This document shows positions 30,737-64,000 of a stretch of DNA of 64,000 nt, in pieces. Position numbers and translations under genes: made by a program. Position 1 is the first letter of the stretch. Every line of letters starts with the position of its first letter. This DNA comes from Acidobacteriota bacterium (lineage in GTDB: Bacteria > Acidobacteriota > Terriglobia > Acidiferrales > UBA7541): the NCBI GenBank assembly GCA_003225295.1, contig QHYZ01000070.1, positions 1 through 64,000 of the forward strand. Reading direction: 5' to 3'. The notes beneath the pieces were generated by a model that did no database searches, was not told the DNA's origin, and was given only the letters and a program-made list of their open reading frames with translations.

Positions 30737-33700
30737 ATGCTGCATCTCAGAAAGCTTTGCTTTGCCTTTTTAGTGGCGATTATCGTTTTGGCGCTCGCGC
30801 CTACGTCTGGCTGGAGCCAGAACGTCTATGGCACCATCGCCGGAACGGTTACGGATACAAGTGGAGCTGCCGTTGCCAACGCGATAGTCACATTGACGAA
30901 TCTGGATACCGCTCAAAAGCGCAGCATAGAAACCGACTCGTCCGGCAACTACACGTTCGTGAATATCTTGCCCGGCCGCTACAAGTTGGAGGGAGAAAAG
31001 ACCGGCTTCAAGAAGTTTGTGCGCGAGCCAATCCTGGTGCAGATCGAAAGCGGGTTGAGAGTGGATATCTCTCTGCCAGTTGGAGCGCAGACCGAGACTG
31101 TCGAGGTGACCGGCGAGGCGCCGTTGCTCCAGCCGGAAACGAACTCGCTGGGGCAAGTGGTGGAACAGCGAACCGTGACGGAGCTGCCGCTCAACGGGCG
31201 CAACCCGCTGGCACTCGTCGGCCTGGTGCCGGGCGTTGTGCCACAGGGCACCCCGTCGGCTGGCAATTCTTCGGCGGGCAATCCCGTTGGCGCTAATCCC
31301 TTCGCTCTCGGAGATTTTCAAGTTGGCGGAGGTATGGCCGGGCAGAGTCAGATCCTGATCGATGGTGTGCCTACCAATGGAGCGTACCTGAACGTTGTGA
31401 CCGTGATACCCACGCAAGATGCCATCGAGGAATTCAAAGTCCAGACGAACAATCTGGGTCCCGAGTACGGGCGATTTGCCGGCGGAGTCATCAACCTGTC
31501 AACAAAATCCGGCACCAACACTTTCCATGGTTCGGCCTATGAGTTCCTGCGGAATAAAGTGCTGAATGCGAATGGCTTCTTCGACAACAGCAGCGGCCTC
31601 GCCCGTCCTCCGTTTACCCAAAACCAGTTTGGCGCCAACGTGGGAGGGCCCGTTCTGAAGGATAGGTTATTCTTCTTCTCCAGCTATGAGGGCTTTCGGC
31701 AGCGTCAGGGAAATGTCTTTTTGGGATGGGTTCCCACCCAAGCTGAGCGCGGCGGAGACTTTTCACAGGCAGGGTCAACCCATACGACCTCAGTCCTTCC
31801 TATTTACGACCCGCTCACCAGTACGAACTGCATCTCAAGCAATCCGACTTGCAGAACGGCCTTCATGGGAAACGTGATTCCGACCGGCCGAATCGACCCT
31901 ACGGCCCAGGCGCTTTTGTCCTACATGCCGATGCCGAATCAGGTAGGCAATCCGAACGGTAACTTTGCCGAGAACTATAGCAGTGGCGGCGACGTCGACC
32001 AGTACAACGAGCGCATTGACTATAACCTGAGTGCGAAGCAGAGAATTTTCGGCCGGTACACGCATTCTAAAATACTATCGCTCCCCAACAACCCTTATAA
32101 TGGTATATGCACGGACCGCTGTACCGAAACCACCTACGCTCACCAGGTTTCCCTGGGTGACACGATTGCGTTTTCACCCAAGACCATCTTGGACTTGCAC
32201 ATTGGTTACACGCGGTATGTTTACCTGCGCACGCCGCTTAGCCAAGGCATCGACTTGTCGAAGTTTGGTGCAAACTGGGCGGCCTTAGCCCCCCAGATGA
32301 CCTACACTCACATTCCGGACGTGTGCATATCGCAGACGAACGGTGATAATCACTGGGGCGCCGGCAGTTGGTGCACTCAAGGAGCCGGAAGCGGCATCGG
32401 CGCTTGGGACGACACGTACAGCTTTACCCCCTCGCTCTCCAGGATTATGGGTAAACACGCCCTCAAAGTCGGCGGAGAATTCCGCGTGCTCCGCAACAAC
32501 TACTATCAGAGCAACGATCCTGCCGGCTTGTACTATTTTGATGCCCGCATGACGGCGGCAAACCCTACCGTCGGCACGTCTGGGGCTAACGGTTCAACGG
32601 GGAATGGCTTTGCTTCTTTCCTGCTCGGCTACGGGACAGACAACACCAGCAGCAGCGTGACCGAGCCCGCAAGGACGGCCGACCAGAATCTTTACAAGGC
32701 GATATACGCTGGCGATACCTTCCAGCTCACCAGGAAGATCACCTTGAACCTGGGGGTCCGCGTCGACCTCCAGGGGGACTGGACGGAGCGGTTTAATCGC
32801 ATTGTTGTTTTCAACCCCTCCGAAACGAGTCCCATTGGGGCCGCGGCCGGAATGCCGAATCTGAAGGGCGCATATGATCTAGTGAGCAGCACGCAACACC
32901 CCAGCCGCAGTGCATTTAGCTCCTGGAACCATGTCAGCCCGCGCCTTGGGGTTTCCTACCAATTGGATAAGAATACGGTTATCCGGACCGGCTACGGAAT
33001 TTTTTACCTGCCGGTTGATATCCGCTGGAACGATGCTCCCCACAACCTCTTCATCAACAGTTTCAACACGTCTTGGCAAGCAGTGCAGTCGGATGGAGTT
33101 ACCCCCAAGAATCCCTTGTCCAATCCTTTCCCGGTCAGCGGAATCACTCCGCCCTTCGGTAGGGACCAGGGCTTGATCAACGTACAAGGGGGTGGCAACG
33201 AAGCGCCAGTGAACGGTAACCCTGCACCTAACGTGCAGCAGTGGAACTTCGACATCCAACGTCAGTTTCCCGGCAATCTGCTGGTTGACGTAGCTTATGC
33301 GGGGTCCAAGGGCACACATTTGCCCATGCATGATCAGACCCTCAACCAATTGGCGCCCCAGTTTCTGCCCAAGAATGCTGCGGATGTGACCGCCCTAAAG
33401 ACACAGGTTCACAACCCATTCGCCGGGAATTGCCCTCCCCCTAACACTGCGCTTTGCACTGGGCCCGTGCAATCAGGTGGCATAGGCACCAATCCGACGG
33501 TAATGGCAGCGCAGTTGCTGCTGCCATTCCCGCAGTATGACAATGTGGCCATGTCCGAGCCCGATAACCGCGATTCCATTTATCATTCCATGCAGGCGAA
33601 GGTCGAGAAGCGCTTCGCTGCGGGCGCGCAGGTGCTTGCCTCCTACACCGTCTCCAAACTCATCGATGACACCAACTCGGAGATCAACTGGTTGGAAGCC

Positions 33701-34345
33701 TCTCCGGTGGGCTGGAACGACGCCAATGTTAACAACCTGCGTGGCGAGAGAAGCTTGGATGCCTTCGACGTTTCTCAGCGCTTCGTACTTGCTTCCGTTC
33801 TTGACCTGCCTTTTGGCAAAGGCAAGAAGTATGCGAATAACCTCGGCGGAGTTGCCAATAGGCTCATCGGCGGGTGGGGAATCAATACCATCATTACCTT
33901 CCAGCGCGGCTTCCCGATTATCATCGGCGGGTGCCCGGGCTTGCTCAGCGACTCCGGTGTCCCGAACGTGGGCTGTTCCCGCAATACGAGAACGGCCTTG
34001 TCGAAGCTGACCTCCGGCTCTCTGGACGCACGGCTGGCCCACTGGTTTGACACTTCCGTGTTCACGCATACCAACGATTACAGCTACGGCACCGACTCGC
34101 GTACCGAGCCGAATATACGGAGCGACGGAATGAAGAACTTTGACTTTGCGGTTTTCAAGAACACCAAGTTCGGTCCGGACGAAAGGCTTGGCGTAGAGTT
34201 CCGCGCAGAGTTCTTCAACGGGTTCAACCACCCGCAGTTCAGTCCGCCGAATAGCGGCTGTTGCGGTAGTAGCGATTTTGGGCGAGTAAGCGGACAGTAC
34301 AATCTTCCGCGCCAAGTCCAGTTCGCGTTGCGGTTCACCTTCTAA
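30737..34345 (+). CDS. Oar-like TonB-dependent receptor
   Basis: A 1,202-residue outer-membrane receptor. The ATG has a near-ideal GGGAGGAAAA before it. Signal peptide LCFAFLVAIIVLALAPTSGW, then a carboxypeptidase-regulatory domain (YGTIAGTVTDTSGAAVANAI), a plug with TELPLNGRNPLALVGLVPGV and ILIDGVPTN, and a long barrel. It ends RQVQFALRFTF with the terminal aromatic residue expected for outer-membrane insertion. The length matches the acidobacterial Oar-like family (about 1,100-1,250). It follows the CRTAC1 gene by about 380 bases and precedes the TPR gene by about 90. The transported substrate is unknown. Confidence 0.9.
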   Translation: MLHLRKLCFAFLVAIIVLALAPTSGWSQNVYGTIAGTVTDTSGAAVANAIVTLTNLDTAQKRSIETDSSGNYTFVNILPGRYKLEGEKTGFKKFVREPILVQIESGLRVDISLPVGAQTETVEVTGEAPLLQPETNSLGQVVEQRTVTELPLNGRNPLALVGLVPGVVPQGTPSAGNSSAGNPVGANPFALGDFQVGGGMAGQSQILIDGVPTNGAYLNVVTVIPTQDAIEEFKVQTNNLGPEYGRFAGGVINLSTKSGTNTFHGSAYEFLRNKVLNANGFFDNSSGLARPPFTQNQFGANVGGPVLKDRLFFFSSYEGFRQRQGNVFLGWVPTQAERGGDFSQAGSTHTTSVLPIYDPLTSTNCISSNPTCRTAFMGNVIPTGRIDPTAQALLSYMPMPNQVGNPNGNFAENYSSGGDVDQYNERIDYNLSAKQRIFGRYTHSKILSLPNNPYNGICTDRCTETTYAHQVSLGDTIAFSPKTILDLHIGYTRYVYLRTPLSQGIDLSKFGANWAALAPQMTYTHIPDVCISQTNGDNHWGAGSWCTQGAGSGIGAWDDTYSFTPSLSRIMGKHALKVGGEFRVLRNNYYQSNDPAGLYYFDARMTAANPTVGTSGANGSTGNGFASFLLGYGTDNTSSSVTEPARTADQNLYKAIYAGDTFQLTRKITLNLGVRVDLQGDWTERFNRIVVFNPSETSPIGAAAGMPNLKGAYDLVSSTQHPSRSAFSSWNHVSPRLGVSYQLDKNTVIRTGYGIFYLPVDIRWNDAPHNLFINSFNTSWQAVQSDGVTPKNPLSNPFPVSGITPPFGRDQGLINVQGGGNEAPVNGNPAPNVQQWNFDIQRQFPGNLLVDVAYAGSKGTHLPMHDQTLNQLAPQFLPKNAADVTALKTQVHNPFAGNCPPPNTALCTGPVQSGGIGTNPTVMAAQLLLPFPQYDNVAMSEPDNRDSIYHSMQAKVEKRFAAGAQVLASYTVSKLIDDTNSEINWLEASPVGWNDANVNNLRGERSLDAFDVSQRFVLASVLDLPFGKGKKYANNLGGVANRLIGGWGINTIITFQRGFPIIIGGCPGLLSDSGVPNVGCSRNTRTALSKLTSGSLDARLAHWFDTSVFTHTNDYSYGTDSRTEPNIRSDGMKNFDFAVFKNTKFGPDERLGVEFRAEFFNGFNHPQFSPPNSGCCGSSDFGRVSGQYNLPRQVQFALRFTF

Positions 34346-40082: not shown

Positions 40083-43000
40083 CTAGAAAGCGAGCCTCAA
40101 CCCGAATTGCAACTGGCGAGGCTGAACAGCGAGCGTGGTAATCGATCCTGCGCTGGCGTTACCGACGCGCACTGAATTCCCGCTACCGACTCCTGGGGCG
40201 TCTAAATTCTGGATGTTAAAGATGTTGAAGGCCTCGAAGCGAAGTTGCAGATTCCATCCTTCGTTACGCAAGGGGACGCTCTTAAACATGGAGAAATCCA
40301 TATTAAACACCGAAGGACCTCGGAACGGGTTTTTCCCGAGATTTCCAAATGCTCCGGAGGGAGCGGCAAAAGCGCAAGGATTGAACCACGTCTGGGCAGT
40401 GTGGGTGGCGTCCGCGGCTAGTCCACCCTGCGAGATAGTTGTCTGGCACTTGGGGTTCGGATTTGCGGGAACCGGGCCAGGCTGAAAGGGATCGGCGATC
40501 ATGTTGGGCCGGGCATAATCGCTCGGGCCATTGCTTCCCATTCCACCAGAGCCCTTGAGGTTGGCGACATCGCCCGGCACGATCAGACCGTACGGCTGGC
40601 CGGACCGGCCTTGGAAAATATAATTTGCCTGCCAGCTACCCAGGATCCACGACCCAGGCCCGCTCCGAAGCCATCTCTTGCCTTTCCCCGCAGGAAGCTC
40701 ATAGACAGTAGCCCAAGACACAAAATGCTTGATGTCATACCCGGAGATGCCCCGAGCGGAACTCAAGTCAAAATAGTTTTGGACGCTTGAAGCACCTTGC
40801 GGACCATTCTCGACATTGAAGTAGCCGCTGCTCGTGTCGATGGATTTTCCAAACGTGTATGACAGAAGGGAGATCAAGCCATTGGCAAACCGCCGCTGGA
40901 CCTTGGTTTCCAGCGCGTTGTAATTCGAGTAGCCAATGCTCTGGGCATAGGTTATTCCCGAAGTCGCCCAGGGCATAAGTCGATGGCTGTCTATGGAAGC
41001 AATGTATGCGTTGTTGCAAGCCGTGTCCGTTTTCGCGCAAGTGTTGTTCGGCGAGGCCTGATTCGCAGCGTTGGCGTTCCCTTCGAAGTCCAGGCGTCCA
41101 TTCTTGCTGCCCACATAAGCGGCGGAGAACATCAGATTCGGAGTGAACTCCCGCTGGATTTCAACATTCCATTGCTGCGAGTAGGGATCCTTGTAGGTGG
41201 GAGCGACGAAAAAACTCCCGCTGGTCCAGGGGGTTGCTGCCGGCAGCGAATTTGCGAAGGTTCCCTGGATCCGGTCGATTGTTTTCAGTTGGGTGGGACT
41301 CAGATTGTTCCCGTTGAAATCGCCGTTAAGGGCCAGGGCGCCCGGCCATACCGCCTTCTCGAGAACGTTCTGTGCGGCCTGACCTCTGCCCGCGAGCGTA
41401 TCCCAATAGAGCCCGTAGCCCCCACGAATGACTGTTTTCTGACTCAGTTGCAACGCCGCGCCGATGCGAGGCCCCCAATTGTCCTTCACGGGCGGCGGCG
41501 AGAAAAAGGCTTTGCCCGCCACGATCACGTTGTTGAAGTGCGCATCCTTGGTAAAATCACAGGGAATCGAGGTGTTGTTACAAGTTGGCGTAGTTGTGGG
41601 CGTGTAAAGCGGCGCCCCATCCGGAATACACGGCGCTTGTGGGGCTACGCTACACAGCGGAGGCATGGCTGTGGCCCCGATGATCCATTGCTGGCGGAAT
41701 AGATCCAAGGCATTCCACAGTCGGCCATCCAGTGTCTGTGGTTGAGTCAAATAATCATACCGCAAGCCAAAATTGAGAGTCAGCCTCGCTCGCACCTTCC
41801 ATTCGTCCTGCAGGTATCCGGCCCAGGCGGCATACTTGTACTTCACGGGGCCCGATCCTGAGACGGGCAACTCGCCACCTACGTTGCTTGGCAAACCCAA
41901 CAGAGCCGAGGCCAGCGATAGCCCGGTACTGCTGTTTCCAAGGCCTGTTTGGCCGTCCCCAAAGCTGTATCTTTGGAACGTGTTCATCTGTATTCGCTGG
42001 GAATCGATAAACCAAGCACCTATCTTGAAGTTGTGCCTCCCCTTGAGCCAGACAATGTTGGGTGTAACGCTCCAATTGGGGTTCTCCCTGGGCGCCGCTC
42101 CGCGAATACCGAAATCGCTGCTGCCGCCGGCAATCCACTCGTTGGTGTTGAGTCTGAAAAGGATGCCTGAGAACTTATCGATGTCTTTAAAGCCGAGCTG
42201 GTTCAAGGGGTCGAGCCCCAGTGGATTCTGATTCTGTTGACCGGCATCCACGGCAGGCCGGCCCGCATAACCGGCGCGCAAATCAAGAACCAAGCTTGGC
42301 CGAAAGATGTGCACCCAGCTCCCGCCATAGTTCCTGCCGGTCGAACCGCCTTCGGTGAATCCAACTTCGCCAATCGGATTAACCACTGACACGCGCTGTT
42401 CGGTGTAGCGAAAAAACAGATTGTCTTTTTGACTCAATCGATGATCGATTCGCAGTTGAAAACTGTTGGAAGTATTCGGTGTTGGCCTGGTTTGAATGAA
42501 ATTGTGACCCAGGTCCGTCGCCACCGAGTAATTGGATAGGGTGGAGTACTTCAGGAAAAACTGTTGCATCTCTGCTGAAATAAGGGCCTGCGGAAGTTTG
42601 TTGCAAGGGGCGCCCAGCGTCTGGTCCTGAAGATTGGTCCCAGGTAACAGAGGCAGAGGATCTCCACTGGCATCGCATCGGAACGGCGCCCGAGCTGAAC
42701 CCGAACCACTGTAAGGGTTATAGATCTGGTGGGAGGTGGTGTAGTAGGGCTGCGCGGTAAAGTCTCCGCTCAACTCCGCTGCAGTGGGCACATAAGAACG
42801 GTCCAGGGAGGGTTTGCTGTAGCGCCAGCCGTCGTAGCCGCCAGAAAAGAAAGTCTTATTCTTGATGATGGGACCGGAAAAGGTCGCCCCAAACTGGTTC
42901 TGTCGAAATGGAAAAATCTTGGGAGTTCTCGTAACCGGGTCGAAATCCGTCACGCTATTGCGCGCATCGAAAGTGTCGTTGCGGACGTATTCGAAGGCCG

Positions 43001-43787
43001 AACCATGGAAGGATCCGCTTCCCGACGCCGACACCATGTCCACCACGCCGCCCGTCGCGCCGCCAAATTCAGCTTTAGCGTCGTGCCCAACCACCTTGAA
43101 CTCTTGGATCAGATCAATGTTAGGAATGACAATATAGGTCGGTCCGCGTACGTTCGTGTTGATGATGCCGTCAAAAAAGTAGAACTTCGAGCGGTTCTGT
43201 TGTCCGTGGAACGAAGCATCAGAGAAACCCGACCCCGGAATTCCAACATTTCCTTCGCAACATCCAATACTCTTGTTTTGGGCCGTGGAAACGGGAGTGA
43301 CACCTGGAGTCAGGGTCAGTAACTGCGTAAAGTTCCTGCCATTTAGAGGCAGGTCATTCACAGCTCGGTCGGGAATCACGGTGCCCAGTTCGCTCGTGGA
43401 CGCCTCGAGCATCGCGGCTTCCGCCTTCACCACCACTCGTTCGTTGACTGCGCCGACCTCAAGTCTTACCGCCTGCGTGACCGTTTGGTTGACGCCCACT
43501 TCAAATGTCGAGACTTCGGTTGTCTTGAAACCTTTTGCCTCGACACCCAGAATATACGTTCCTGGCTTGACGTTAATGAAGACGAAGTAGCCGTCCGAAT
43601 TTGTCGCCGCTCGATCATCGATCTTGGTGGCCAGGTTGGAGAGCCGGACCGCGGCGCCAGCCACAAATCCTCCTGATTTGTCTGTAACCGTGCCATTCAC
43701 TTCACCTGCAGCCGTTTGCGCGCGACCTCCATTCGCAAATATGAGCAAGAACAGAGGGAGAAACGCTGCCATCTTAGCCGCTCGCAT
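40083..43787 (-). CDS. Oar-like TonB-dependent receptor of the fucosidase locus
   Basis: A receptor of about 1,234 residues. The ATG at 43787 has GGGGGTG upstream; an in-frame alternative lies two codons earlier. Signal peptide AFLPLFLLIFANGGRAQ, then the carboxypeptidase-regulatory domain (GEVNGTVTDKSGGFVAGAAV), plug (NDLPLNGRNFTQLLTLTPGV) and barrel, ending PRQLQFGLRLAF with the terminal phenylalanine. A CCEGN insert after the plug start is notable. It leads a minus-strand operon with GH29 and GH97, so the imported product is probably a fucose-containing oligosaccharide; this is inference from neighbours. The divergent IclR regulator starts about 307 bases away. Confidence 0.9.
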   Translation of the reverse strand: MRAAKMAAFLPLFLLIFANGGRAQTAAGEVNGTVTDKSGGFVAGAAVRLSNLATKIDDRAATNSDGYFVFINVKPGTYILGVEAKGFKTTEVSTFEVGVNQTVTQAVRLEVGAVNERVVVKAEAAMLEASTSELGTVIPDRAVNDLPLNGRNFTQLLTLTPGVTPVSTAQNKSIGCCEGNVGIPGSGFSDASFHGQQNRSKFYFFDGIINTNVRGPTYIVIPNIDLIQEFKVVGHDAKAEFGGATGGVVDMVSASGSGSFHGSAFEYVRNDTFDARNSVTDFDPVTRTPKIFPFRQNQFGATFSGPIIKNKTFFSGGYDGWRYSKPSLDRSYVPTAAELSGDFTAQPYYTTSHQIYNPYSGSGSARAPFRCDASGDPLPLLPGTNLQDQTLGAPCNKLPQALISAEMQQFFLKYSTLSNYSVATDLGHNFIQTRPTPNTSNSFQLRIDHRLSQKDNLFFRYTEQRVSVVNPIGEVGFTEGGSTGRNYGGSWVHIFRPSLVLDLRAGYAGRPAVDAGQQNQNPLGLDPLNQLGFKDIDKFSGILFRLNTNEWIAGGSSDFGIRGAAPRENPNWSVTPNIVWLKGRHNFKIGAWFIDSQRIQMNTFQRYSFGDGQTGLGNSSTGLSLASALLGLPSNVGGELPVSGSGPVKYKYAAWAGYLQDEWKVRARLTLNFGLRYDYLTQPQTLDGRLWNALDLFRQQWIIGATAMPPLCSVAPQAPCIPDGAPLYTPTTTPTCNNTSIPCDFTKDAHFNNVIVAGKAFFSPPPVKDNWGPRIGAALQLSQKTVIRGGYGLYWDTLAGRGQAAQNVLEKAVWPGALALNGDFNGNNLSPTQLKTIDRIQGTFANSLPAATPWTSGSFFVAPTYKDPYSQQWNVEIQREFTPNLMFSAAYVGSKNGRLDFEGNANAANQASPNNTCAKTDTACNNAYIASIDSHRLMPWATSGITYAQSIGYSNYNALETKVQRRFANGLISLLSYTFGKSIDTSSGYFNVENGPQGASSVQNYFDLSSARGISGYDIKHFVSWATVYELPAGKGKRWLRSGPGSWILGSWQANYIFQGRSGQPYGLIVPGDVANLKGSGGMGSNGPSDYARPNMIADPFQPGPVPANPNPKCQTTISQGGLAADATHTAQTWFNPCAFAAPSGAFGNLGKNPFRGPSVFNMDFSMFKSVPLRNEGWNLQLRFEAFNIFNIQNLDAPGVGSGNSVRVGNASAGSITTLAVQPRQLQFGLRLAF

Positions 43788-43958
43788 GCACACCCCCTAG
43801 GCATGAATTCCGAAAAAAACATCGCTAAATCCAGGCCCAAGACCAGAAACGCGCCGACCATGGAACTTGATACCGTTGATCCTGCCGGCGCCGCAATCCT
43901 CCAAGACTGAAAGGCTTCTATCAAGCTACATCGCAAAATTCAATATTAAAAATCTATG

Positions 43959-56592: not shown

Positions 56593-57744
56593 TTAATACC
56601 TGCAGGCGTGCTCACTGAGTCTATCACTATCGATAGGACGTGCCAGAATCTTGAACTTGTGCGACCCATCCAACCGTGCGGGGTAAAGGTTTTGTCCCAG
56701 ACTGTATAGGTTAACTTCACACTCCATCTTGAACTGCATTGGCGGGTGCGCGCCGTCTTTGGATTCAAGTACGCCCTGGCCGACTGTTTTGACTGCTGAT
56801 TTGGCCTGGGAGCGGGTGGCGGCAGTGACTGTTAATGTAAGCGGATAGTCTTCGGTCCGCTGGTCCATCGTTGAGCGGGTTGTCAAATTGAAAGCCTGAC
56901 CGGACGACAAGAGATAATAGGATGCTCCACGGTGTTGCTTCCCATCATGAATTACGACCTGACCGCCGACGACGAAAAAGGAATCGCGATGCACAACGAT
57001 TGCCGCGCTCTCATCAATTCCGATCCCCAGCAGTTCTGGGTGTGCCGATATGACGGCACCGAGGTCAGCTCTGCGACCACGGGTGTTGACGTGCTGGTCG
57101 ATAGCAGAATTGGGCAGCAAACCGAAGCCTGTTTCATGTCCGGGAGACATCATAATAGTGTTGTCGCCATTAGGGTTTCCAGCATTCCCCGGTGCGCCTC
57201 GAACTAGGAATGATCCCTGAATGGTCGCCCCGGCAGACCCGCCGCCTACCACACCACCCCGCGCGACGAGAGCCTTAATCTCCCTTTCGACGGCTGTGCC
57301 GAGGTAGGCGTCCACAAGCCTCCATTGGCGTCCACCTGTCACCCATACACCTGAAGCATGTCGCAGGGACTCAACAAAACCCGCAGAGTTTGCCTGCGCG
57401 CGGTCTCTTGTATGCAGAACGGCGATATGCCTTATGTCATACTCGTTCTGAAAAGACTGTCTGAGGTTGTCCACGTCGATTTCATTATCAGAAAGTGCTG
57501 TTGGGATGACTACGAAGTTGGCTTGTGGTCCGCCAGCCAAGGCCACGAAACGCTCTTTGACCTCATTCGTCACTGCACCGCCGCCTTGAATTATCAACCA
57601 GCCGTTGGTCGGGCCGACCGTTTCAGAGCCTGTTTCATCCTTTGCGGTGTATCCGTCTGGGCGGCTAATGGCCTGCAGATGCGCGATGGCAAGCGGGAAG
57701 AGCAAGAACGCGAATCCGAAAAAGCGCGATACGGTACTGTTCAT
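56593..57744 (-). CDS. Secreted S51-family peptidase (cyanophycinase-like)
   Basis: A 383-residue exported protein with a signal peptide (FFGFAFLLFPLAIAHLQAIS). The fold is that of peptidase E/cyanophycinase: NGWLIIQGGGAVTNEVKERF, FVVIPTALSDNEID, GVWVTGGRQWRLVDAYLGTA and VVGGGSAGATIQGSF, in which Ser near 171 is the expected nucleophile. LLPNSAIDQHVNTRGRRADL and LGIGIDESAAIVVH follow as in cyanophycinases. The C-terminal 90 residues are extra. AGGAGC precedes the ATG. Whether it cuts cyanophycin or another aspartyl-isopeptide is not known; no cyanophycin synthetase is in the window. Confidence 0.85.
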   Translation of the reverse strand: MNSTVSRFFGFAFLLFPLAIAHLQAISRPDGYTAKDETGSETVGPTNGWLIIQGGGAVTNEVKERFVALAGGPQANFVVIPTALSDNEIDVDNLRQSFQNEYDIRHIAVLHTRDRAQANSAGFVESLRHASGVWVTGGRQWRLVDAYLGTAVEREIKALVARGGVVGGGSAGATIQGSFLVRGAPGNAGNPNGDNTIMMSPGHETGFGLLPNSAIDQHVNTRGRRADLGAVISAHPELLGIGIDESAAIVVHRDSFFVVGGQVVIHDGKQHRGASYYLLSSGQAFNLTTRSTMDQRTEDYPLTLTVTAATRSQAKSAVKTVGQGVLESKDGAHPPMQFKMECEVNLYSLGQNLYPARLDGSHKFKILARPIDSDRLSEHACRY

Positions 57745-57881
57745 AATGATTGCTCCTGACTATTCTCCACGATCGCCAAGGCACCGAGCAACTCACAATG
57801 ATCTGGGACAAGACTGTCGAGGCAAAGACTTAGGGAACTGCGTCGAATTGTTCTGGAAGTTTGCTCGCAAGAGCGGCGGCG

Positions 57882-58517
57882 CTAAAACGTCAGTCGACCT
57901 CCGAGCTCAATCAGTCGCGCATTGTACTGGGACGCGCCGATATACGACCACAGGTGTACCACGTTGCCATTCTGATCTTGTGCCACGACGCCAGGAGAGA
58001 GCACCGCTAGCAACGTGGGGACGTGGCTCATCGAAGGCAACTCGGCGAGTTCTTGAGACGTGATGACGGTGCCAGAGGTGGCGGAAGTTGTGTCGATTAG
58101 TGGTGTTGCCGAGGTCACTACGACCGATTCCATGGTCGAGCCGACTTCGAGTCCGACATCAATTTCTTTGCTGTCCGCCGTTTGCAGCGTGATGCCGCGA
58201 CGCTCCATAGTTCTAAACCCGGATGCCGTCACGGAGAATTGGTAGGCGCCGGGCAACAGATACTCGACAATCCAGTTCCCTTGAGCGTTGGTTTGGGTCT
58301 GCCGTTTGACCCCGGTATCGTTCGACATCACAACTACGATTGCGCTCGGCACTGCGGCACCCTGCGGGTCGGTAACTCGCCCGCTTAATGTTGCTCGGGC
58401 CTCCTGCGCCAGCGCGTGGCGTGGCACGCAAAGGCAAAAAACCGCTAAGTGACCCAACGCCAATAGGCATCGGACAGTCGCTTTTCGTCGAGCAACTCGG
58501 TCTGAGAACGTGAGCAT
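57882..58517 (-). CDS. Mini TonB receptor: N-terminus joined in frame to last barrel strand
   Basis: A 211-residue product that starts like an Oar-like receptor: signal region ALGHLAVFCLCVPRHALAQE, regulatory domain RATLSGRVTDPQGAAVPSAI and the start of the plug (SQELAELPSMSHVPTLLAVL). After VVHLWSYIGASQ it jumps to YNARLIELGGRLTF, which is the C-terminal barrel strand with the terminal Phe. A normal relative would have about 800-900 residues between. The deletion is in frame, so the protein could still be made and exported, but it cannot form a barrel. GAGGG lies a few bases before the ATG. Most likely a recently eroded receptor gene. Confidence 0.75.
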   Translation of the reverse strand: MLTFSDRVARRKATVRCLLALGHLAVFCLCVPRHALAQEARATLSGRVTDPQGAAVPSAIVVVMSNDTGVKRQTQTNAQGNWIVEYLLPGAYQFSVTASGFRTMERRGITLQTADSKEIDVGLEVGSTMESVVVTSATPLIDTTSATSGTVITSQELAELPSMSHVPTLLAVLSPGVVAQDQNGNVVHLWSYIGASQYNARLIELGGRLTF

Positions 58518-59082
58518 GGGGCAACCCTCGGCTTCGTTTCCACCATGGACGATGTCGGGCGCGCATACTTTGTAAGATTCTTGCCGCCTGTCAATCCGTA
58601 CTTTCCCCTAATATGCCGGCGGTGCTTTCCCTGACGCGGAGCAAGCGGCGAGGACCACGCTATGCGGGTTGGTTTTAATCCGGCGGCTGAACCAGGCAAT
58701 GTGCCCGGCGAAGAGGACTTGCCGCCGTGGCCGCTCGCAGGTTTTACCCGTGCAGGCTGGTTACGGGAAGCCTGCGGAATTGGGGACTGCATCTCCAGGA
58801 TTGGCCAGACCCAGAAAGCACGATTCACTTCCTCAGACAGGCAGTGAGGAAAGTGGAGAAGATTACCCTGGAATCTGCCTCGGAGAAAGTAGCTGGAAAA
58901 CGCGTTGTCCGGGCCAGATGCTGATCACGAAGCAGGCCCTCGATGGTGCCCATGAAACCCCAGCGGAGCGCTTGGATGGGAATGTTCGGTGCGAGTTCGC
59001 CCTTAGCGTCTCCTATCAGCACAGTTTGTCGCTTTCCCCAAGCATGCTGGTAGGGAGCAGAGGCGGCCACCGGAAAAGCGAA
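58518..59082. other. Intergenic stretch, no supported gene
   Basis: I see no gene or recognisable repeat in this 565-base stretch between the mini receptor and the DUF4382 gene. Open frames on both strands lack ribosome sites and have no domain I can name. Confidence 0.4.
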
Positions 59083-59108
59083 GGGCGCCGGCATGAAAGC
59101 CAGCGCCC
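59083..59108 (-). terminator. Terminator-like hairpin after the DUF4382 gene
   Basis: GGGCGCCGGC pairs with GCCAGCGCCC around a six-base loop (nine of ten pairs). On the minus strand the stem is followed by TTCGCTTTTCC, a T-rich tail, as expected for an intrinsic terminator. It lies about 30 bases after the stop of the minus-strand DUF4382 gene. Confidence 0.55.
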
Positions 59109-59139
59109 CAGGGGAGGCTCAACATCAGATGACTTACTT

Positions 59140-60636
59140 CTAGTCGCTGGTGCCAGAAGACATGGAGCGCTTGACCACCTTTTCGGCAGCCATGGTCGGC
59201 ATGGTCATGGTGTTGAAGAGTGGCCCGCGAACGGAAACCACGTCCCCAGGCTTTAAGGAACTAAGGCCGGAAAAGGTTTGGTCTTCTTCCGTTTCGAACT
59301 GCGTGGTGGCCAGGACGTCCACCTGGATCGAGGTGATCCCCGCGTTCGTGAAAAACGACGGGAGGTTGCCCAATGTGAATGTCTGGGGGTTGCTGCCGGT
59401 GTTGACGGCTGTGACCGTGCCGGTCACCCTTGACGGCTCCAGCTGCACCTGGTCAACCGTGACCATCAGGTTGGGAGGCGTGCCGGTCGGTGCCCCAGTC
59501 GGATGAAGGCGGACCTCCTGCCCGACCATGAGGTCAGCGGTGCTCGCGAAGTTGAGTCCTGACGGAAACATGAAGCCGCTGGTGTCGATGGAGAAGGTCG
59601 CCTGGGGCGCGAGATTGATGGTCAAAGGAGCGCCCATCGAAAAGCTTCCCATCTCGTCGCCACCGCCGAAGGACTCCTCATCAAAGAGAACGATCTGGAA
59701 GCTACTCGCTCCCGCACTTACCGAGGTGACCGTGCCTGCGAAAGAAATCTGATTGGGAGGCTGAAAGAATTTCACCTCGAAAGCAAGGAGTGAGCCATCC
59801 GGCTTCATTTTGGCGTCCACCTTGACAATTTGGCCCGTTTGCAAGCAGGAGAAATTCTCGGCGCTGCAAGACGTTCCAAAATCGAAATGTGTGCTGCTAT
59901 CGGTGGCGATAGTGAAAGAAGGGCCGTTCATTCCGCTCTGAATGGTGAAGGTATGCATGGTTTGGTCAATCGACGCTACCTGGCCGATCAACTCCATGTC
60001 CTCATCGCCCTGGTCTCCGCCGCTGGAATTCGGCGGTGGGAGCTGCACCAGACTGACCGTGGGAGTTATGGAAAGGTCGCTTTGTTGAATGGAGGTGTCT
60101 AAATTAAAGTCCAGTTTCAGAACCACCGGGGAATTCATGGTCAGAGTAATCGGGAACGGCGTGGTTGGAGCTTCGACGGTCACCGAGGATTGATTGAGCT
60201 TGGGATCGAACTCACACACTTGTTGATCGGAGCAAGTTTTAGTTCCGAGAGTGAGCGTCGTTCCAGTCTGGTTTTGGATAGTCATTCGAGGGTTTGCAAA
60301 CGAGACCATCAGGCCGCTGTAAGCCCCCGTTGGGACATTCCGGCTCGCCAAGAGTGCCGACTCTGTTTGCAAATGCTCGAGCTCAATGTCCTCGGGCTCG
60401 CTGAGCATTGAAACCGGCTGGCTGCTGGAATCGCTGGGTTGAAGAGCAGCGCCGGTCACCTCAATTTCAAAAGAGAGCACGGTCACGCCCATCGGCGGAT
60501 TGTCGTGGATCGTCAGAGAAACCTGGGACATGCTTGCGCCCAAAGGTGTTTGCGTTGAGCTCATACCGCCACCACATCCGGCCAACGCAATGGTGACAAG
60601 CAAAAGCGGTCCGAGACACGAAATAACCTTGCGCAT
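59140..60636 (-). CDS. DUF4382/DUF5666-type lipoprotein
   Basis: A 498-residue predicted lipoprotein. The ATG at 60636 has GGAGGAGCATCT upstream, and the N-terminus is VISCLGPLLLVTIALAGCGG with a lipobox (LAGC). The first 170 residues (SQVSLTIHDNPPMGVTVLSF) match the DUF4382 pattern. Later parts contain repeated small beta domains of the DUF5666 kind (IGQVASIDQTMHTFTIQSGM, FAGTVTSVSAGASSFQIVLF, VTGTVTAVNTGSNPQTFTLG). Function is unknown; such proteins are abundant in Acidobacteriota. It ends at a good terminator hairpin. A longer upstream frame exists, but no start there has a ribosome site. Confidence 0.82.
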   Translation of the reverse strand: MRKVISCLGPLLLVTIALAGCGGGMSSTQTPLGASMSQVSLTIHDNPPMGVTVLSFEIEVTGAALQPSDSSSQPVSMLSEPEDIELEHLQTESALLASRNVPTGAYSGLMVSFANPRMTIQNQTGTTLTLGTKTCSDQQVCEFDPKLNQSSVTVEAPTTPFPITLTMNSPVVLKLDFNLDTSIQQSDLSITPTVSLVQLPPPNSSGGDQGDEDMELIGQVASIDQTMHTFTIQSGMNGPSFTIATDSSTHFDFGTSCSAENFSCLQTGQIVKVDAKMKPDGSLLAFEVKFFQPPNQISFAGTVTSVSAGASSFQIVLFDEESFGGGDEMGSFSMGAPLTINLAPQATFSIDTSGFMFPSGLNFASTADLMVGQEVRLHPTGAPTGTPPNLMVTVDQVQLEPSRVTGTVTAVNTGSNPQTFTLGNLPSFFTNAGITSIQVDVLATTQFETEEDQTFSGLSSLKPGDVVSVRGPLFNTMTMPTMAAEKVVKRSMSSGTSD

Positions 60637-61878: not shown

Positions 61879-64000
61879 ATGAGAAATTCAAAGGCGAAAG
61901 ATTTCTCGGCGATGCTCAAGAAGATGAGTTTTGAGATCGGGATGGCTGCGCTGCTTCTGGCCTGTGTGCCCGGCGTGCGGGCGCAATCGGAATCCATCAA
62001 CGCAACGATTCGAGGACGCATCACGGATCCCACCGGCCAGTCGGTGGTGGGTGCCGCGGTGTCGGCCGTGAACGACGCAACCGCGTACGCACGAAGCGTG
62101 CCTACAGGCGACGACGGCTATTACGTGATTCCAACACTGCCCATCGGCACCTACACGCTCACGGTGACCAAGGACGGATTCTCAACGCTGAGATTTCCCG
62201 GGATTGTTCTTCAGGCCGGGCGAGAGGCGGTCGTTGACGGCGCCCTGAAGCTGGGTTCGGTGAACACTTCGATCGAAGTGAACGGCGGCGTCCCAGTGCT
62301 AGATCTCGCGCGAACCAACATCAGCGGAACGATCACCCAGACCGAGGTCCAAACCCTGCCGCTGACCTCACGGAACCCTTATAACTGGATCATGTTCCAG
62401 CCGGGCGTTAGCGGCCACCCCAATCCCGAGCTGGGAATTCCACGCACCTTGAATACCAACGGCTTCGTGGACCGCATCAACTATCAGATGGACGGTATGG
62501 TAGATACGGAAAGCGATCGTTACGGGCTGCGGCTGTTTCCCATTTCCTCCGTTTATGTGAGCGAGATTCAGACGGTCAGCAACAGCTTCGCTCCGGAATT
62601 CGGCGGCACCACGGGGAACATCTATAACGTGATTACTGGATCAGGCACGAACAATTTGCACGGCATGTTTCAGTGGATCCGCGGGCCGGTGGACACCAGC
62701 GCGCGGCCCATCCTGCTATCTCCCACACGGCCGAAGCCTAATCTGCTGATGAATTCCTACGGCATGAACGCGGGCGGACCGATCAAGAGGGATAAGTTTT
62801 TCATCTTCGGCGCGTACGAGCACCTGTACCGCGCGCTGCCCGTGGCGAACACGGTGAGCGCCACAAACCAAACGGCCCTGGAAGCCATTGGAATTCCGGC
62901 GTCGCAATTTGACACTGCCCCGTCCGTGCAACACGCTCAGTTCCTGGACGTGCGCGGCGACTGGGATATTGACACGAAAAACCATGTCTTTGTTCGGGTG
63001 AATTATTTCCGGAACACCTACCCCTTCAACACGGCTGTCGGCGGGATGAACACGCTGGCTGCTGAGTCCGACTTTAAGGACCGCGCCCACGTTGCCGGCC
63101 TCCAGTGGGTCGACACGCTTTCGTCAAATTGGCTGAACGAGTTCCGGTTTTCCTATCCCTACCGGAATGAGAAACACATTGCGGGATCACTGACCGGGCC
63201 GCAGCCGGCGGTGACCATCTCGGGGGTGGCGAACATCAACGGGAGCACCAGCGTCGGCGATGTATTCGCGGAGAAGATTCCCAGTTGGAACGACAACCTG
63301 ACCTACATTCGCGGCCCACACACGTACAAGGCGGGATTTGGATTTTCGCGCATCATTGACGTGCAGGAAGGCGACACGTTTACACAGTATGTTTTTCCAT
63401 CTATCCCTGCGTACCAAGCAGCGTTGAACGGAACCGACCCGAAGTCCTATTCAACGGTGAACGCGCTGATCGGCAATTCACGGGTGGGCTACATTTCCAA
63501 TTTCTTCAACTTTTTCGTGCAGGATAACTGGCAGGCGCGGCCGTCTCTGCTGGTGAGCTACGGCATCCGCTACGACCGGTTTCTTTCACCGGCGGCGAAC
63601 CCGACTGCGCCGTACCCGTTCTCGCGCAGCTTCAACAATCCCGCGGGGAACGTATCGCCGCGACTGGGCCTAGCGTGGAGACTCGGGAACAAAACGGTGC
63701 TGCGCGCCTCGTGGGGAAAATTCTACGACGCCCCGCCAACCAATCTCTGGTACAACGCGCTCTTCAACGACGGATCGGGCACCGCGTTCAACGCATCGCT
63801 TTCGCCGGCGTCGTCGGGTGCCCCTTCCTATCCTCAGGCCCTAACGTCGGCCACGGCCCCGGCCATTCCATCCGTCTTTACGGTTACTCCCAACTTCAGG
63901 AACGGCTATGCCATGACGACCACGCTCCAAGTTTCGCGGGAACTGACGAGAAACGACGCGATCACGCTGGCTTTCGTGAATACCGGCGGGCGGCAGTTGC
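61879..64000 (+). CDS. Oar-like TonB-dependent receptor, partial (C-terminus beyond window end)
   Basis: The frame is open from ATG 61879 to the right edge (about 707 codons). AGGGGAAG lies eight bases before the ATG. The N-terminus has a signal peptide (GMAALLLACVPGVRAQSE), a carboxypeptidase-regulatory domain (NATIRGRITDPTGQSVVGAA), the plug motif LPLTSRNPYNWIMFQPGVSG and RINYQMDGMVDTESD, then barrel strands such as NFFVQDNWQARPSLLVSYGI. The missing part is the distal barrel. The substrate is unknown and no hydrolase gene is adjacent on the left. Confidence 0.88.
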   Translation, partial: MRNSKAKDFSAMLKKMSFEIGMAALLLACVPGVRAQSESINATIRGRITDPTGQSVVGAAVSAVNDATAYARSVPTGDDGYYVIPTLPIGTYTLTVTKDGFSTLRFPGIVLQAGREAVVDGALKLGSVNTSIEVNGGVPVLDLARTNISGTITQTEVQTLPLTSRNPYNWIMFQPGVSGHPNPELGIPRTLNTNGFVDRINYQMDGMVDTESDRYGLRLFPISSVYVSEIQTVSNSFAPEFGGTTGNIYNVITGSGTNNLHGMFQWIRGPVDTSARPILLSPTRPKPNLLMNSYGMNAGGPIKRDKFFIFGAYEHLYRALPVANTVSATNQTALEAIGIPASQFDTAPSVQHAQFLDVRGDWDIDTKNHVFVRVNYFRNTYPFNTAVGGMNTLAAESDFKDRAHVAGLQWVDTLSSNWLNEFRFSYPYRNEKHIAGSLTGPQPAVTISGVANINGSTSVGDVFAEKIPSWNDNLTYIRGPHTYKAGFGFSRIIDVQEGDTFTQYVFPSIPAYQAALNGTDPKSYSTVNALIGNSRVGYISNFFNFFVQDNWQARPSLLVSYGIRYDRFLSPAANPTAPYPFSRSFNNPAGNVSPRLGLAWRLGNKTVLRASWGKFYDAPPTNLWYNALFNDGSGTAFNASLSPASSGAPSYPQALTSATAPAIPSVFTVTPNFRNGYAMTTTLQVSRELTRNDAITLAFVNTGGRQL

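Follow-up and report, generated by a model that had tools for sequence, protein, structure and literature searches.

A short in-frame open reading frame in an Acidobacteriota genome is probably a young deletion remnant of a TonB-dependent receptor

With regard to its two ends, the open reading frame treated here resembles a TonB-dependent receptor, and its small size raises the question whether it is the remnant of such a receptor or a short protein in its own right. It is located on the minus strand of the window, i.e., the whole stretch of 64,000 nucleotides that was analyzed, and extends from an ATG at 58517 to a TAG stop codon at 57882–57884. The initial annotation had proposed an in-frame product of 211 residues, and the frame was indeed recovered on the minus strand at exactly 57882–58517. 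In the following, it is referred to as the mini-receptor.

Composition of the mini-receptor and extent of the loss

The mini-receptor consists of a signal peptide, a CarboxypepD_reg domain and the first part of a plug, which continues in frame into the terminal ~11–13 residues of a receptor. The signal peptide (residues ~1–38, 58404–58517, minus strand as for all features of the frame) is intact and features a charged start, a hydrophobic stretch and ALAQ/E, with the cleavage site assigned by eye. The regulatory domain (residues 43–123, 58149–58391) is matched by the profile PF13620 with an E value of 4.3e-19. It is followed by the first part of the plug (residues 124–197, 57927–58148), which is colinear with full-length relatives and contains an ESVVVTSA stretch that we take to be TonB-box-like. 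The putative deletion junction falls on GASQ codons, GGCGCGTCCCAG (residues 194–197, 57927–57938), and the remnant of the C-terminal strand, NARLIELGGRLTF, occupies residues 199–211 (57885–57923). The frame is clean, with neither stops nor frameshifts, and neither of the barrel models PF25183 and PF00593 matches it at E ≤ 1. A structure predicted from a three-sequence alignment (mean pLDDT 54) comprises a helix at residues 4–30, taken as the signal peptide, and beta strands between residues 42 and 122 with ten-residue means of 57–82; residues 125–211 are modelled at a pLDDT below 50 and without confident structure. A promoter scan of positions 57600–59200, a test of small weight, found no sigma-70-like site.

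Both ends of the mini-receptor belong to one family of TonB-dependent receptors with a CarboxypepD_reg domain and an OMP_b-brl_4 barrel, which is presumably Oar-like. A 1184-aa frame from a genome of the same genus (G012), which is cut by a contig end, is colinear in its N-terminus with residues ~5–197 of the mini-receptor, and up to residue ~197 the identity to the N-termini of family members amounts to 46–75%. In a BLAST comparison, the mini-receptor and the G012 frame are 72% identical over residues 5–208, the last few residues being aligned only via a gap onto a GGR in the plug. The sequence of the mini-receptor reads HLWSY-I-GASQ-YNARLIELGGRLTF-stop. The counterpart of the junction region in the G012 plug is HLWSYNGASQFTADGGRNN, and that of the tail at the C-terminal end of a full-length receptor from another genome, G018, is FGVVGASQVNQPRAIELAARLAF-stop. 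When the last 11 residues, RLIELGGRLTF, were scored against the C-termini of five full-length relatives, a mean of 29.6 was obtained, which ranks first among the 2,358 stop-ended frames of at least 11 residues in the six frames of the window (mini-receptor included), followed by the tails of two other receptors of the window with 23.4 and 22.8.

These data also bear on the reading of the frame as an ordinary truncation, in which a premature stop in the plug was accompanied by a small insertion and the GGR of the tail would be plug sequence and not part of the last strand. The three-sequence alignment and BLAST both place the GGR of the tail on that of the plug, as this reading would have it; however, the codons of the tail match the C-terminal end, the stop codon lies at the same place as that of the family members, and downstream of it there is no match to the barrel of the family. 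On the grounds of the C-terminal codon match and the lack of a downstream barrel match this reading was rejected, and we regard it as extremely improbable.

Compared with established members of the PF13620/PF25183 receptor group, the mini-receptor shares the signal peptide, the regulatory domain, the first part of the plug and the last strand but is devoid of the second part of the plug and of the barrel save for the last ~11–13 residues. The retention of signal peptide, regulatory domain and final strand had been recognized in the initial annotation and is borne out. The extent and position of the loss have to be revised, on the other hand: instead of about 800 residues, 1,013–1,068 are missing relative to the five relatives for which both ends are available, and the junction does not lie exactly between plug and last strand but inside the plug. 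The barrel model PF25183 was found in all four relatives scanned and in each of them begins ~64 residues past the junction point; the second part of the plug has therefore been lost, too. The plug of the mini-receptor is thus incomplete, with colinearity ending at about residue 197 and the ~64 residues in front of the barrel model gone, where the limits of the plug are judged from the alignment, as the relatives gave no match to a plug model either.

Full-length relatives, paralogs and the search for the short form

A search of 399 genomes of the class at E ≤ 1e-40, with seven candidates scored per genome, yielded matches in 12 genomes including the source genome, corresponding to 12 loci in 11 other genomes. 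The open frames at these loci comprise 1184, 1290, 1312, 1344, 1231, 1250, 1263, 751, 661, 1262, 1229 and 1313 aa, i.e., frames of 1184–1344 aa at ten loci, with the uncut ones ranging from 1,229 to 1,344 aa. The coordinates of the 751-aa frame suggest that it reaches the start of its contig, and the 661-aa frame is part of a long gene with a frameshift. A further family member of 1277 aa is present in an Acidobacteria bin (MAG record). Full-length relatives sharing both ends, as the initial annotation had proposed to look for, are thus available, and its view that a TonB receptor has lost an internal stretch in frame proves right.

The short form, searched for as a frame of less than 320 aa, was found at none of the 12 loci in the 11 other genomes. 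Recurrence of the same short form in several genomes, which the annotation had named, in conjunction with purifying selection, as one of the findings that would speak against its own reading, was accordingly not observed in the genomes searched, and a conserved short protein type was rejected as an explanation. Within the genus, the family occurs in three of 35 other genomes, with frames of 1184–1312 aa. In four well-assembled genomes of the genus, none of 148 matches lies in a frame below 320 aa; the shortest (323 aa, G031) forms the N-terminal portion of a longer, frameshifted receptor gene, the remainder of which is situated in another frame. A looser search (E ≤ 1e-30, 61 genomes) adds a 115-aa frame in G018, which is a partial copy that carries a frameshift and lacks the C-terminal tail, and a 434-aa frame in G051 on a 3.2-kb contig. 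As to the neighborhood, only the mini-receptor among eight window proteins tested has matches at the loci of six relatives, and the flanking frames of at least 150 aa, receptors aside, contain one shared pair only (L047/L048). Among the papers listed on pseudogenes of TonB receptors that carry internal or in-frame deletions, on isolated plugs and on receptor paralogs in Acidobacteria, such a short form did not appear in the titles and opening parts of the abstracts. Large sets of paralogs have been described for Solibacter in an article the main text of which does not contain the word "pseudogene" (PMC3174227).

The source genome (8.13 Mb, 385 contigs, estimated to be 96% complete) holds 99 matches to the mini-receptor, of which 90 lie in frames of 600 aa or more, and the second-best match after the mini-receptor itself is 40% identical. 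Four further genes of the window match its N-terminal part (3–1868, 30737–34345, 40083–43793 and 61879–63999). Nine of the 99 frames are shorter than 600 aa, the mini-receptor among them. According to their coordinates, those on C373, C299, C132, C75 and C259 extend to the ends of their contigs. Another receptor with an internal deletion, a decayed counterpart of the mini-receptor, is encoded at C204:103893–104758 (L073 894–1759); it lacks ~930 residues in comparison with another receptor of the window, and its N-terminal and C-terminal parts are located in different frames, i.e., this loss is out of frame. C143 (591 aa) and C319 (583 aa) are the remaining two frames below 600 aa. Receptor losses thus happen in this genome, and that one of them stayed in frame is unremarkable, because a chance of about one in three readily gives one in-frame and one out-of-frame loss.

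In other genomes, a frameshift within the barrel interrupts a full-length family member on the minus strand of L072 (G248:C1, 501–4078), and downstream of the full-length family member of G018 the N-terminal region is present again as a partial copy of 403 bp, 98.8% identical with one gap (L045, G018:C71, 11402–11804). Other members of the family are thus likewise decaying.

A barrel of the mini-receptor's family was not detected elsewhere in the assembly, where 150 of 195 candidates were scored and only paralogs emerged. The query was the G012 barrel, which stops at the contig end of G012; the best-scoring match, to a paralog, covers almost all of the query at 34% identity, and more similar matches are short pieces of other paralogs only. 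This result is relevant for a possible assembly or binning artefact, in which reads from two places would have been merged at a short sequence common to both, with loss of the barrel. Such an error is conceivable in a 385-contig draft of an estimated 96% completeness, the case being judged from the assembly. Against it stand the position of the junction well inside a 72-kb contig, the absence of any other copy in the genome of a 201-base stretch spanning the junction and the 3' flank, the lack of an orphan barrel among the candidates scored, and the length of the similarity at the junction, ~12 bases. Usual assembly word lengths are far above 12 bases. Taken together, an artefact appears very improbable.

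Break sites and a possible deletion mechanism

Deletions between short direct repeats are well known in bacteria and arise by slippage or illegitimate recombination. The closest relative, G012, ends at a contig edge, and its C-terminal break site lies outside the available sequence; the next two relatives, for which both ends are complete, are G018 and G024. With break sites picked from the protein alignment, the corresponding 12-mers are GCGGCGTCACAG and GGGGCATCTCAG in G018 (9/12 bases alike) and GCGGCGTCACAG and GCGGCATCCCAG in G024 (10/12 bases alike). Among 7,800 in-frame pairs of 12-mers from the same gene ends, pairs at least as similar account for 0.22% in the case of G018 and 0.03% in the case of G024. 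G043 also exhibits 9/12 identical bases (0.10% of in-frame pairs), while G051 and DBS2 are at chance level with 4/12, and as the five relatives with both ends are kin to one another, these comparisons do not constitute independent tests.

That the nearest relatives carry similar 12-mers at the two break sites points to a deletion between short direct repeats. We infer this mechanism from relatives of the immediate parent gene. The parent gene would have carried two direct repeats of ~12 bases, the (G/A)ASQ codons in the plug and the (G/A)ASQ codons just before the last strand, and replication slippage or another short-homology event between them would have removed roughly 3.0–3.2 kb, a multiple of three. 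The case resembles bacterial short-repeat deletions in that a nearly identical direct repeat exists at both sites in the nearest relatives and a single copy at the junction of the mini-receptor; it differs in that the repeat of the parent sequence is deduced from relatives. The resulting stub would be exported by virtue of its signal peptide, and its small regulatory domain could fold. A barrel could not be formed, and the product would most likely be useless and degraded.

Selection, possible function and significance

Selection on the N-terminal part was analyzed over 160 codons in nine sequences. Of 14 sequences, five (G325, G248, G226, G073 and G361) were dropped as they do not contain the anchor motif, and the tree was derived from this same short region, two of its nodes being weakly supported (40 and 28). 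Of 59 positions conserved in all other sequences, the mini-receptor breaks two, as does G012, and an excess of amino-acid change is thus not seen. Tajima tests of the mini-receptor against G012 with seven outgroups gave chi2 values from 0 to 4.0, and at 4.0 the faster copy is the full-length G012. In a two-ratio codon model, omega is 0.026 on the branch of the mini-receptor vs. 0.083 in the background, i.e., lower and not higher (2dL 4.0 relative to one ratio), and omega = 1 on this branch is rejected (2dL 23.5). The branch of the mini-receptor was estimated at 7.25, close to the bound of 8, which indicates saturation. At the tip, a neutral phase exceeding ~0.1, compared to ~2.5 under constraint, is disfavored (2dL 3.7 at 0.1 and 6.3 at 0.15). 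If the gene is dead, its death would therefore have to fall in roughly the final 4% of its branch, a bound that is rough because synonymous sites are near saturation. Low omega reflects either a recent deletion or continued constraint on the short form, and the data do not separate the two. The facts other than omega, namely the absence of the form elsewhere, the loss on C204 and the decay of family members, favor a recent deletion.

Continued constraint would be expected if the short protein were in use, as an exported protein of regulatory domain and half a plug that competes for TonB or binds a periplasmic ligand or partner. The clean frame, the intact signal peptide and regulatory domain, the retained TonB-box-like stretch and the low omega on its branch are all in line with such a decoy, and there is a precedent in the complete isolated plug of FepA, which binds its ligand weakly: it has been reported as unfolded, with a value of 5 µM, 100-fold below intact FepA (PMC11658791, citing Usher et al., 2001). 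Like the mini-receptor, this plug is part of a receptor without the barrel, but it is a plug domain studied as such, whereas the plug of the mini-receptor is partial and its binding conjectural. Furthermore, the plug has lost its second part and the loops of the barrel are gone, residues 125–211 are modelled at a pLDDT below 50 from the three-sequence alignment, no full-length member of the family was found among the candidates scored in the source genome with which a decoy could interfere, the short form occurs in no other genome examined, and low omega is equally expected for a young deletion. We therefore consider it unlikely that the mini-receptor is in use in any way. Still less likely is the specific case of a single deletion having created a small exported protein that now tunes the TonB system via its regulatory domain and TonB-box-like stretch; if this were true, that system would be one serving roughly 90 other receptors, and the low dN/dS would stand for continued use.

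The initial annotation had left open whether the product is a harmless relic or a soluble decoy. The former is better supported, on account of the absence of the form elsewhere, the second deletion on C204 and the repeats at the break sites, and positive evidence for the latter did not emerge. The mini-receptor is thus very probably a young pseudogene, the deletion remnant of a full-length CarboxypepD_reg/OMP_b-brl_4 TonB-dependent receptor, and as such real but ordinary. It would illustrate neatly how a member of a large receptor family is lost through one short-repeat deletion that happens to stay in frame. As an in-frame remnant, the frame could be mistaken for an ordinary exported protein with a regulatory domain, and it cautions that a short open reading frame may be clean and show low dN/dS although it is a recent relic.
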